Assembly (NCBI RefSeq): GCF_013374995.1
Contig: NZ_CP056030.1
Span: 3,318,501 to 3,382,500, forward strand
Direction of reading: 5' to 3'
Length of the DNA: 64,000 bases
Source of the DNA: Pseudomonas eucalypticola
Lineage (GTDB): Bacteria > Pseudomonadota > Gammaproteobacteria > Pseudomonadales > Pseudomonadaceae
Position numbers and translations under genes: made by a program. The notes beneath the pieces are model-generated. The model searched no databases. It was not told where the DNA came from and saw nothing but the letters and a program-made list of their open reading frames with translations. Positions 44,284 through 64,000 of this stretch are shown piece after piece (the first letter of the stretch is position 1; the number at the start of each line of letters is the position of its first letter).

Positions 44284-47200
44284 TCAGGACAAGGTCTGGG
44301 TGCTGGTCAGTGCTTGGCGCTCGAACCACCACGCCGCCAGGCTGTACACGTCCGGCGCCTTGAGCACGCTGAAGTGGTTGCCCGGCCCCTCCCACACCGC
44401 CAACTGCGGCAGCAATGCTTGCCAGCCACTGACCATGGCCACCTGCTCGCGCTGGTTGCCAGCGCTGTCCAGGGTCGGGTCGCTGACCAGCACCAGGTTT
44501 GCCGGACCGTCATACCCTCCTCGGGGCACATACACCGTGCGCAAGGCACTGGCGAAGGTCCGTGCGATGGCATGCAGCGCCTGGGGCGACATGCGCGGCG
44601 GTAGCAGGCCGACGTTGGTCATGGCCGCGTGCAGCCATTGCAACTGCGTACTGTCGTCGGCTTCGGCAAACGCCTCGGCCGGCAGCCCCAAGGGCTTGCC
44701 GCTGGCCAACTGCAAGGACTCCACCAAACGCTGCAACGCCTGGGTCGTGGTGTAGGGCTGGCCCAGACCGCCCGAGCCGCCCGGCGCCTCGGTGTCCACG
44801 AGGGTCAGCGATAGCACCTCGCGGCCGCGGGCCTGCAAGCGTACGGCCAGGGCGTGGGCCACCCAGCCACCGAACGAATGCCCGACCAGATGCAACGGCC
44901 CTTGCGGGTACTGCGCTTCGATGGCCTGCACATGACAGTCTGCCGCTGCCTCTATCCGGCTATGGGGCACGCTATCGCCACCCAAGCCACGGGCCTGCAC
45001 CCCGTAGATCGGCCAGTCCGCGCCCAGTGCCTCGGCCAGGCCGATGAAGCTGGTCACGCTGTCACCGGCCCCCGGCACGCAGAACAACGGCGCCTTCGTC
45101 GCCTGGCCGCTCTGGATCGCCAGCAGCGGTGGGTAGCCCGACGGCGGTTGCGGCCCTTGCGGTGCGCTGGCCAGCGCCTGGCTGATGGCCTGGCCGAGCC
45201 GTTGCACATGGGGCGGTTGCATCATGCTCAGGTGGTCGCCCGGCACGTCGATGCAGTGCAGTTGCCGGGTGACCTGAGCCTCATGCCAGCCCAGGGTGGC
45301 GCTGGCTCGTTGCGTGTCACGCTGCTCGGCGCGGAACAGGTGGATAGGCAGGTTCAAGGGTTCCAGGCGGTAATGGGCCAGGGCATGGCCGTGGGCGACC
45401 TCCCGGGCCAGGTAGTGTTGCACCTGTTCGTCGCTGGCCTCGGCCAGTTCCGGTAGCAGCAGTTGCTGGTCGCGGCATTGGCGCAGCAGTTGCTGGAAGC
45501 TGGCCGGTTGCGCCGCCAACGCTTCCAGCCGTGCCACGCAGGCCAAACCCGCCTGGCCCTGGGCCTGCCAATGGGCGTTGCAATGGGCCAGCAACTGCCG
45601 TTGCAACAGATCCGCCCCTTGCCAGCGGGCCTTGCCCTGGTCGGTGAGCCGAGGCACGTAGGTGTCGATCAGGCCAAGGAAACCGACCGTTTGGTCCATA
45701 CCCACCAGTTGGGTCGCGACTTCATAGGCCAACACACCGCCAAACGACCACCCCGCCACGCGGTACGGGCCCTCGGGCTGCACCTCGCGGATGCGCGCCA
45801 CCAACCGCGCCGCCAGGCACGGCACGGTATCGAGCTGCGGCTGGCCGAGGCCGACACCGGGCAAGCCGTGGACCGGGAACCCGTCGCTCAGGTGCTGCGC
45901 CAGCACGGGGAAATACGCATCCAGGCCGGTGAAGTCGTGAATCAGGAACAACGGCGCTTCACCCCCTTCGGCACGCACCGTGACTACCTCGGGCTCGGCT
46001 TCAGGCGCGGCCTCACGGCGCTCCAGCCGTTCGGCCAGGGCCGCCACGCTGGGGTGCTGGAACAGCTCGGCCAAGGACACTGGCCATTGCGCTTTGCGCA
46101 GTTGGCTGACCAGGCGGATAGCCGACAGCGAGTGCCCGCCCAGCTCGAAGAAGCTGTCGTGGCGGCCCACCCGCTCAACCTCCAGCACCTCGGCCCACAG
46201 CTCGGCCAACCGGGCTTCCAGGGCCGTGGCCGGCGCCTGGTACTCACGGCTGGCCCAGGCGTCGGCCTGTGGCGCCGGCAGCGCACGGCGGTCGACCTTG
46301 CCGTTGGCGGTCAGCGGCAAGGCGTCCAGGGCCACGAACGCGCTGGGCACCATGTAGTCCGGCAGGATGGCTTGCGCGTGGCTGCGCAGCGCCATGGCAT
46401 CCAGGGCCGGGTCGTGGCGAGTAAAGTAGGCCACCAGGCGCGGCCCGCCCTGCTCCAGCGTCTGCGCGACCACCACGGCCTCGCCGACGCCGTCGCAGCG
46501 CAGCAACGCCCGCTCGACCTCGCCAGGCTCCACCCGCACACCGCGGATCTTCACCTGGTCGTCGTCGCGCCCCAGGTACTCCAAGGTACCGTCGGCGAGC
46601 CAGCGCACGCGGTCACCGGTCTGGTACATGCGCGCGCCCGGCAGTGGGCTGAACGGGTCCTGCAGGAAGCGCTCGGCAGTCAATTGCGGGCGGTTCAGGT
46701 AGCCACGGGCGACCCCCGCGCCCCCCACATACAGTTCGCCCGGCACCCCGAGCGCCACCGGCTGGCGACGCTCGTCGAGCACATACAAGCGGGCATTGGT
46801 GATCGGCTTGCCGATGTGCAGCACGCCCCCCACCTGCACCTGCCCGGAACTGGCGACCACCGTGGTTTCGGTGGGGCCGTAGTTGTTGATCACGGCAAAG
46901 CCGGGGTCACGGTGGAACTGGCGCAGGCGGTCGCCGCCGATCAGCAAGGTGCGCAGGGTCGGGTGGCGCAATTGATGACTGAAGGCATACTCGGCCACGG
47001 GCGTGGGCAGGAACGCCACGTCCAGCGGCTGCGCCAGCCACCAGTCGAGCAGTGCGTCGAGCTGCTCGTTGCCGATGTCGGTCGGCGGCAGGTGCAACGT
47101 GGCCCCCGCGCACAGCGCCGGCCAGACTTCCCAGGCCATGGCGTCGAAACCGAACCCGGCGACGCTGGCGGTATGGCTGCCAGCGTGCAGGTCGAAGGCC

Positions 47201-62006: not shown

Positions 62007-64000
62007 AGGATAATCTCCATGCTCTCTGTGATGGCTGCGTAGGCAGCCAGCGTGGGGTGTTCGAACAGGGCGCGGACATCCGCTTCCACGCCTTCCTGGC
62101 GCAGACGCGCGGTCAGGCTGACCGCCAGCAGCGAATGGCCGCCCAGTTCGAAGAAATTGTCGTGCCGCCCTACCCGCTCCAGCCCCAGCAACTCGGCCCA
62201 GAGGCGAGCCAGCAGGATTTCGGTGTCGCCCTCGGGGGCGGCATACGGGCGCACCAGGCCGGCGTCGGCGCCTGGCGCTGGCAAGGCGTTGCGGTCGAGC
62301 TTGCCGTTGGGGCTCAGGGGCAAGGCCGGCAGGTGAACGTAGAGCGCCGGTACCATGTAGTCGGGCAACTGCGCCGCCAGAGCCTGGCGCAGCAGGTCCA
62401 CGGCCACTGGCGCACCGGTGTAGTACGCCACCAGGCGCGCGCCACCGGGCTGGTCGTCACGGGCCATGACCACCGCCTGGTCGATACCGGGCTGGTTTTC
62501 CAGGCACGCCTGGATGTCGCCGGGCTCGATGCGCAGGCCATTGACCTTGATCTGGTCGTCGTTGCGGCCCATGAACTCCAACAGGCCATCGTCGCGCTGG
62601 CGCACCAGGTCGCCACTGCGGTACAAGCGCTCGCCCGGGTTGAAGGGGCTGGCGATGAACCGTTCAGCCTGCGCCTGGGGCAAGTGCCGATAACCCCGGG
62701 CGACCCCGGCGCCGCCGATGTGCAGGTGGCCCACCACGCCCAGCGGCACGGGCTGGTCATCGCTGCCCAGCACGTACAGCTGGGTATTGCTGACAGGCCG
62801 GCCGATCGGCAGTGTGCCTGGGGGTATCGGTTGCCCGGGCTCCAGGGTCCAGGCGCTGCAATCCACCGTGGTTTCGGTAGGGCCGTAGACGTTGTGCAGG
62901 CGCACGCCCGGCAGACGCTGGCGCAACTGCGTGGCCAGCGCCGGGGTCAATTCGCCGCCACCGCAAACGATGTCGGTGAGGCTGGTGCAGGCCGCGCTGA
63001 CCGCCTGCTCGAGGAACTGTTGCAGCAGCACCGGGACGAACTGCACCACGCTGACCCGGTGCTCTTGGATAAGACGCGCCAGGTAGCCCGGGTCGCGCTG
63101 GCCGTCAGGCCTGGCCAGGACCAGGGGCAGCCCACTGCACAAGGGCCAGAACAGCTCCCACACCGAAGCGTCGAAGCTCAACGGGGTTTTGTGCAGCACC
63201 GGCCCGCAGGTGCACAGGCTCGCCGCCCAGTGCACCAGGTTGACCACGTTGCGGTGCTCGACCATCACCCCTTTAGGCGTGCCCGTGGAGCCTGAGGTGT
63301 AGATCACGTACGCCAGATGCCTGGCCGTGAGGCCCTCGACCGATGGGTTGGCGCCAGGCAGCGCACGCCCGTCCCACTCGCCCAGGTCCACCTGGGGCAC
63401 GCCGACCTCGCCCAGCAGGTCACGGGTACCGGCCTGCACCAGCAGCACCACGGGGGCACTGTCGTTGAACATGCCGCGCAGGCGCTCGGTCGGGTAGCCA
63501 GGGTCCAGGGGCACATAGGCGCCGCCCGCCTTGAGAATGGCCAGCAGCCCCACGACCATGGGCAGGCCTCGCTCGACGCAGATCGCCACCCGCTCATCCG
63601 GCTTTACCCCCAGGCCGATCAAGTGGTGGGCGAGGCGATTGGCCTGCTCATTCAGTTGCCGGTAACTCAGCGCGCCCGCCTCGTCACGCACGGCCATGGC
63701 CTGGGGCGTCGCCGCGGCCTGGGCTTCGAACAGGCCATGCAGGGTTTGCTGGCGATCATGCTCGGTGGCGGTAGCATTGAACGCGTGCAGCACTTGCCAG
63801 CGTTCGTCGGCCGGTAGCACGGGCACCTGCAGCACGGGCTGGTCGGGGTGGCCGTCGACGGCGTCGGCCACGCCCTGGAGCACGTGCACCACGTAATGGC
63901 CGATCCGCTGTGCGCCGATGTCGCTCGGCACCATCACGCTCAAGCGCAAGGCGTCACCCAGGTCGTCGACATTCAGGCTCAGCGGGTAATTGCTGAGCTT
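62003..64000 (-). CDS. NRPS, upstream protein (partial): C(end)-A-T
   Basis: Only the last ~665 residues are in the window; the frame stays open to the right edge, where it reads KLSNYPLSLNVDDLGDALRL, matching the late part of the HHxxxDH-type condensation domains downstream. The A domain follows with YTSGSTGTPKG and a hand-aligned code DAWQVGVVD, close to glutamine (DAWQFGLID) codes; Glu is the alternative. The T domain is LGGHSLLAVSLTARLRQEGV. The protein ends ITESMEIIL, a short acidic-hydrophobic tail that may dock to the TubC domain of the next protein. It is first in the visible part of the operon; earlier modules, including any fatty-acid-loading starter condensation domain, lie outside. 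The stop overlaps the next start (GTGA). Confidence 0.92.
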   Translation of the reverse strand, partial: KLSNYPLSLNVDDLGDALRLSVMVPSDIGAQRIGHYVVHVLQGVADAVDGHPDQPVLQVPVLPADERWQVLHAFNATATEHDRQQTLHGLFEAQAAATPQAMAVRDEAGALSYRQLNEQANRLAHHLIGLGVKPDERVAICVERGLPMVVGLLAILKAGGAYVPLDPGYPTERLRGMFNDSAPVVLLVQAGTRDLLGEVGVPQVDLGEWDGRALPGANPSVEGLTARHLAYVIYTSGSTGTPKGVMVEHRNVVNLVHWAASLCTCGPVLHKTPLSFDASVWELFWPLCSGLPLVLARPDGQRDPGYLARLIQEHRVSVVQFVPVLLQQFLEQAVSAACTSLTDIVCGGGELTPALATQLRQRLPGVRLHNVYGPTETTVDCSAWTLEPGQPIPPGTLPIGRPVSNTQLYVLGSDDQPVPLGVVGHLHIGGAGVARGYRHLPQAQAERFIASPFNPGERLYRSGDLVRQRDDGLLEFMGRNDDQIKVNGLRIEPGDIQACLENQPGIDQAVVMARDDQPGGARLVAYYTGAPVAVDLLRQALAAQLPDYMVPALYVHLPALPLSPNGKLDRNALPAPGADAGLVRPYAAPEGDTEILLARLWAELLGLERVGRHDNFFELGGHSLLAVSLTARLRQEGVEADVRALFEHPTLAAYAAITESMEIIL

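Follow-up and report, generated by a model that had tools for sequence, protein, structure and literature searches.

The minus strand of a 64,000-base stretch of Pseudomonas eucalypticola, hereafter the window (bases 3318501-3382500 of the main contig; genome of 6.4 Mb, two contigs, 100% completeness), carries a nonribosomal peptide synthetase (NRPS) gene cluster. The cluster extends past the window end at base 64000, and three of its condensation (C) domains lie wholly or mostly beyond it. In a profile search of the genome, eight C domains of the cluster exceeded the Pfam cut-off, so chance is not an issue for the NRPS identification. With adenylation (A), thiolation (T), dual condensation/epimerization (C/E) and thioesterase (TE) domains included, the full line, flank and all, reads Cstarter-A-T-C/E-A-T-C/E-A-T in the first protein and TubC_N-C/E-A-T-LCL-A-T-C/E-A-T-LCL-A-T-C/E-A-T-TE-TE in the second. 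Judged from its sequence, the cluster is almost certainly a factin-family lipopeptide synthetase of the virginiafactin type. Its architecture and product class are already known, and its only oddity is a frame break in the second gene.

NRPS gene 1 (3161 residues from the mechanical start) contains three each of the C, A and T domains, and the open reading frame (ORF) at 50814-62006 contains a TubC_N domain, four C domains and three each of the A and T domains. A two-gene layout of three plus five modules, with eight C and eight A domains, was found, with the caveat that the five-module gene is frame-broken in the window. The NRPS genes, tandem TE domains and macAB pointed to in an earlier note on this DNA were borne out by the domain scan, with the NRPS genes on the minus strand and the tandem TE and macAB behind them. 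The tandem TE, together with the string of Cstarter, C/E and C/E in one protein and C/E, LCL, C/E, LCL and C/E in the other, is that of the factin family, as judged by the C-domain tree, the Pfam TE profile and two GxSxGG motifs.

Loci for comparison came from a scan of named genomes (best 80 of 116 relatives), in which 68 loci were kept. Nineteen of these were hand-picked on the basis of identity and strain name. Fifteen of them showed the factin code order and served for the comparison of the C7/A7 junction, and seven of the 19 entered the tree. Pseudomonas sp. T1-3-2 was present twice (L012 and G051, one genome) and was counted once. The straminea and L18 columns of the domain identity table were dropped (misaligned), and the T1-3-2 values for the dock and C4 were not used (parts missing). 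The gaps at 6410-6699 and 10866-11233 in the factin genes of gamma proteobacterium L18 (L047) correspond to stretches of N in that draft sequence.

The aligned A-domain codes of modules 1 to 8 read Leu-Leu-Gln-Leu-Ser-Val/Ile-Leu-Leu, where the residue names are those that we take the codes to specify; in the Gln and Ser domains the 278 column is displaced by one residue, which was set right by visual inspection. This order fits the factin peptide pattern Leu-Leu-Gln-Leu-X-(Val/Ile/Leu)-Leu-Leu, and it agrees with the Gln-Leu-Ser-(Val/Ile)-Leu-Leu that the earlier note had read from the visible modules. The order Leu, Leu, Gln, Leu, X, Val/Ile-like, Leu, Leu was present in all 15 factin loci, with X being of the Ser type (T1-3-2, QS1027, gingeri, L18 and PS910), the Gln type (cichorii, capsici, asturiensis, triticifolii, alliivorans and straminea) or the Thr type (congelans, KUIN-1, graminis and viridiflava). 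Seven of the eight A codes of the window are equal to those of QS1027, and the eighth differs at two letters.

The C domains were classified with a maximum-likelihood tree of 83 C-type domains, taken from the window, four factin loci, three other Pseudomonas loci and a pyoverdine-type cluster of the same genome, which served as internal reference with 18 of its 20 C-type domains (two partial ones were dropped). Dual and LCL labels were assigned from the HHxxxD motif, and those of the pyoverdine-type domains from domain order. The starters (five rows, support 100/100), the HHxxxDG domains (17 rows, 99/98) and the HHxxxD[H/N/A] domains (43 rows, 100/100) each formed a clade. A tree of this kind had been proposed as a check on the dual reading; the HHxxxDH domains grouped separately, in a clade whose sister is formed by the DCL domains of the pyoverdine-type cluster, and this outcome does not refute the reading. 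By tree position, C1 to C8 of the window are starter, C/E, C/E, C/E, LCL, C/E, LCL and C/E, and the strict alternation over the whole line claimed in the earlier note is rejected. The motifs it had read within the window are present, namely HHxxxDH in C4 (61328), C6 (54986) and C8 (48675) and HHxxxDG in C5 (58229) and C7 (51872). It had also assigned HHxxxDH to the C domain entering the A domain of gene 1; the motif of that domain, at 64702, is beyond the window end and has the sequence HHIVLDA instead. Of the two further strings that it named, MDHxxLE was found in C4 and C8, and GDHTTLE is absent from all three proteins.

C1-C4, C7 and C8 formed starred sets with the same-numbered C domains of all four factin loci, and C6 formed such a set with support of 99/79. 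C5 joined QS1027 and gingeri only (99/97). The nearest solved structures were a microcystin synthetase B fragment for C6 and Txo2/Txo1 for C7. SyfA/SyfB of P. syringae DC3000 have a domain string identical to that of the window, with dual C/E labels (PMC3897469, Table 2), and the window domains are labeled dual C/E because the same string is given there; according to that paper, dual C/E domains have been generalized to every cyclic lipopeptide synthetase studied in Pseudomonas.

The identity of C5 and A5 was 71-88% to QS1027 and gingeri (73-88% to QS1027), as against 48-59% to cichorii and congelans, and C4, T5, C6 and C7 were 65-79% identical to all four alike. Exchange of the module-5 C-A didomain is reported for virginiafactin in PMC8097286 and PMC9948697; the latter gives Ser at position 5 of virginiafactin, and PMC8788793 names Pseudomonas sp. 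QS1027 as its producer. The C5-A5 identity profile and the place of C5 in the tree fit this exchange. A Ser5 module from an exchanged C-A didomain was recognized in the window from the Ser-type code, the C5 tree and the C5-A5 identities, with A5 placed by code and identity.

Several observations weigh against the virginiafactin-type assignment and the dual C/E labels. In PS910, position 5 likewise carries a Ser-type code, yet its C5 and A5 core are only 53-60% and 70% identical to those of the window; PS910 does not fit the exchange well, and a Ser code alone is no marker of this lineage. The motif HH[IL]x4GD, which we take to be the N-terminal signature of dual C/E domains, was exact in C2 only and degenerate in C4, C6 and C8; in a motif search it was not found in C1, C3, C5 and C7, so that C3, labeled C/E, is without it. 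MacAB genes lie beside the synthetase genes in the window, whereas none was found in the QS1027 locus (L023), and PMC8788793, with which PMC10928948 agrees, reports no pleAB next to the virginiafactin genes of QS1027. Finally, epimerization by C/E domains is regularly lacking according to PMC9948697, so the D/L pattern is a prediction only.

Among the 15 factin loci, macAB adjoins the synthetase genes in nine (T1-3-2, L18, cichorii, capsici, asturiensis, viridiflava, triticifolii, alliivorans and straminea), as in the window, and was not found within about 8 kb downstream in the other six (QS1027, gingeri, PS910, congelans, KUIN-1 and graminis).

Table 1. Features of the synthetase locus in window coordinates, except where L009 is named.
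Feature	Position	Strand	Remarks
NRPS gene 1 (syfA-like), 3' part in window	62003..64000	-	runs on to window coordinate 71488 (L009:4003-13488)
Gene 1 domain string	L009:4003-13488	-	Cstarter-A(Leu)-T-C/E-A(Leu)-T-C/E-A(Gln)-T
A3	62234..63730	-	Gln-type code
T3 and C-terminal tail	62033..62212	-	tail ends MEIIL (putative docking peptide, kept in factin relatives)
NRPS gene 2 (syfB-like), 5' part	50814..62006	-	TubC_N-C4-A4-T4-C5-A5-T5-C6-A6-T6-C7; stop after frame break
TubC_N docking domain (PF18563)	61842..62000	-	probable partner of gene 1 tail
C4	60426..61673	-	dual C/E type, HHIAMDH
A4	58881..60365	-	Leu code DAWFLGNVV
C5	57294..58616	-	LCL type, HHIIADG; in the tree with C5 of QS1027 and gingeri
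A5	55707..57233	-	Ser-type code
C6	54084..55346	-	dual C/E type, HHVVMDH
A6	52524..54026	-	Val/Ile-type code
C7	50937..52259	-	LCL type, HHIVADG
Overlap of two reading frames	50814..50889	-	frame break in or just before
NRPS gene 2, 3' part	44284..50889	-	listed as own ORF; A7-T7-C8-A8-T8-TE-TE
A7	49396..50877	-	Leu code
C8	47767..49035	-	dual C/E type, HHVIMDH
A8	46231..47706	-	Leu code
TE1	45196..45954	-	Pfam TE; GWSFGG motif
TE2	44350..45090	-	Pfam TE; GHSFGG motif
MacA-like protein	43075..44226	-	membrane fusion protein of export system
MacB-like protein	41066..43072	-	ABC transporter

Upstream of gene 1 lie genes for a LuxR regulator and for an outer-membrane efflux protein (OEP). LuxR regulators and PleABC-type export genes around the NRPS genes are described as the layout of Pseudomonas lipopeptide biosynthetic gene clusters (PMC9948697), and the present locus has this layout, with LuxR and OEP upstream and MacA and MacB downstream of the NRPS genes. 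A second LuxR gene was not found among the four downstream ORFs scanned. Beyond macB lie genes for an MFS transporter (38998-40215) and a divergent LysR regulator (37989-38930). Elsewhere in the genome, the pyoverdine-type cluster (G000:C1:2512000-2571500; L092-L094) comprises five large NRPS ORFs of 2155-4332 residues with epimerization and DCL domains; the first ORF has a PvdL-like layout. A single further C domain was detected in a 1381-residue open frame at G000:C1:2776187-2777497.

The TubC_N dock claimed in the earlier note was recovered at the start of the ORF beginning at 62006, with 28.2 bits (cut-off 26) in one scan and 27.8 bits when only the first 100 residues were scanned, although the whole protein scored 21.5 bits, below the cut-off. 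TubC_N is the first domain of gene 2 in the window, as it is in all nine factin relatives scanned, and the gene 2 N-termini, read in 13 of the 15 loci, align; T1-3-2 is without the dock and L18 was left out. The C-terminus of gene 1 reads MEI-x-L in the window and in all 14 relatives having a separate gene 1. Docking pairs of this sort have been described, with Pseudomonas named among the genera that have them (PMC6195595), and by analogy the MEI-x-L tail and TubC_N probably form the handover between the two proteins. The conserved tail and TubC_N offer a testable docking pair in factins.

The earlier note had counted two genes downstream of gene 1. In all 15 factin loci compared, one open frame runs over the C7/A7 junction within one five-module gene, and ORFs 50814-62006 and 44284-50889 of the window appear to be a single gene interrupted by a net single-base frame break. 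When the 1,101-base junction stretch was compared with 95 genomes, end-to-end matches were listed in five others, of 1,102 bases in three and 1,105 bases in two. These two lengths belong to the same frame class, which differs from that of the window; the window is therefore net one base short. Since the stretch is one open frame in the relatives, the GTG at 50889 lies inside the gene there. As it stands in the sequence, this copy would yield no product, unless the break arose in sequencing.

It is quite possible, though somewhat short of probable, that the break is an error of sequencing or assembly in an intact gene. The break is single, was not seen in the 15 loci compared and lies beside gene 1, MacA and MacB, all of which match relatives over all or nearly all their length; C-rich and G-rich runs are present at the site, as would suit a sequencing error. 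Against such an error stand the state of the genome, with its two contigs and full completeness, and the nearest relative T1-3-2, which bears a different lesion of its own. In T1-3-2 the C7/A7 junction is unbroken, but genes 1 and 2 are fused in frame into one 8759-residue frame (L012, about 9600-10100) from which T3, the TubC_N dock and roughly 120 N-terminal residues of C4 are missing; as it reads, this synthetase is probably inactive, unless the fusion reflects a collapsed assembly. Because the lesions differ, decay in the lineage is plausible, and the pair gives a hint, from two cases only, of repeated loss of the surfactant trait.

A natural line of three subunits, in which C7 and A7 belong to separate proteins and the downstream one is initiated at GTG 50889 by translational coupling, was judged highly unlikely. 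The two frames do share a 76-base overlap, and the downstream frame begins at a GTG preceded by a G-rich stretch. However, the junction is unbroken in every factin locus compared, with the GTG internal to the gene, and a Pfam scan of both ORFs found no docking domain at the new ends. The C and A domains of one module form one platform, which was also counted against a natural split at this point. It is equally improbable that a one-base change split the module and that the downstream half, restarted at GTG 50889, is used in trans without a docking domain.

The earlier note had further proposed that the machinery was acquired from, or shares ancestry with, beta-proteobacterial systems. Such an origin is barely conceivable. 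In its favor, the solved structures nearest to C7 are Txo2/Txo1, and of the plasmid records listed, the one with the best coverage at the DNA level belongs to Eleftheria terrae (82% of 7,001 bases, 66.2% identity), a species we place in the Burkholderiales. On the other side, the 68 kept loci are all Gammaproteobacteria by title (66 Pseudomonas, one Pantoea sp. and one 'gamma proteobacterium'), and the C domains of the window group position by position with those of factins. The best protein match in plasmid records, including those of Burkholderia, Caballeronia and Eleftheria, was always below 60% identity, with chromosomes of those genera not searched by name, as against 72.8-91% for the QS1027 and T1-3-2 proteins. 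Within the genus, 87 of 199 genomes have TubC_N, the present one included, and the domain is therefore no foreign mark. Nothing found points firmly to beta-proteobacteria, with the chromosomes of Burkholderiales not searched by name; the proposal is not supported by these sequence comparisons, which removes a supposed case of cross-class NRPS acquisition. When bases 53000-60000 of the window were compared with plasmid records, the best place was at 90-95% DNA identity in 46 and at 80-90% in 34, none of them among the 20 listed.

A thanafactin synthetase was rejected as a candidate: MacAB lies directly downstream, the C domains group with the syringafactin family and the MFS gene is farther on, whereas PMC9948697 gives thanafactin a single downstream MFS transporter only and an NRPS unlike all other Pseudomonas lipopeptide synthetases.

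For the factin-family synthetase of virginiafactin type, domain order, C-domain clades, A codes, homology and the adjacent LuxR, outer-membrane efflux and MacAB genes are established at the level of sequence, and the following route may be proposed. The starter C domain would join a 3-hydroxy fatty acid to Leu1. The dual domains C2, C3, C4, C6 and C8 would flip the preceding Leu1, Leu2, Gln3, Ser5 and Leu7 to the D form and then condense, and the LCL domains C5 and C7 would leave Leu4 and residue 6 as L. The D/L alternation that the earlier note predicted for residues 3 to 8 follows from these C types, and the same has been predicted in print for syringafactin (PMC3897469). The chain would pass from the first protein to the second by docking of the MEIIL tail to TubC_N, and the tandem TE would release a linear acyl-octapeptide, to be exported by MacAB and the outer-membrane channel and to act as a biosurfactant. 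Published factins are linear lipopeptides of eight residues with roles in surface activity as biosurfactants and in swarming (PMC10928948, PMC9769872). With a 3-OH-C10 acyl chain and Val as residue 6, the predicted linear product would have an [M+H]+ near m/z 1068.7 by calculation, lighter by one CH2 than syringafactin A (1,081.74 Da in PMC9769872).

The earlier note was right in seeing a lipopeptide line with dual C/E and LCL domains and in its residue order; its view that the cluster is not of the standard Pseudomonas kind fails, the architecture being that of the factins. Syringafactin SyfA/SyfB of DC3000, as known from the literature, share the domain string of the window, and P. congelans (L016) has like code types except at position 5; in this species module 5 is of the Thr type, C5 and A5 have the low identity noted above and macAB was not found in the locus. 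The cichofactin-type cluster of P. cichorii (L041) resembles the window in module order, in code types except position 5 and in having macAB directly downstream, but its module 5 is of the Gln type and its proteins are 67-71% identical. Apart from its gene fusion, T1-3-2 is closest, with 90-91% protein identity, the same predicted peptide and macAB. The described Pseudomonas cluster that the earlier note had regarded as telling against its proposal largely exists in QS1027, whose virginiafactin synthetase is like that of the window in its three plus five modules, C-domain types and order, seven of eight codes, C5-A5 lineage, TubC_N dock and MEIIL tail, but differs in protein sequence (73-75% identity) and in its unbroken second gene. 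The present cluster thus adds a lineage with a Ser5-type factin module that, unlike QS1027, has MacAB alongside.

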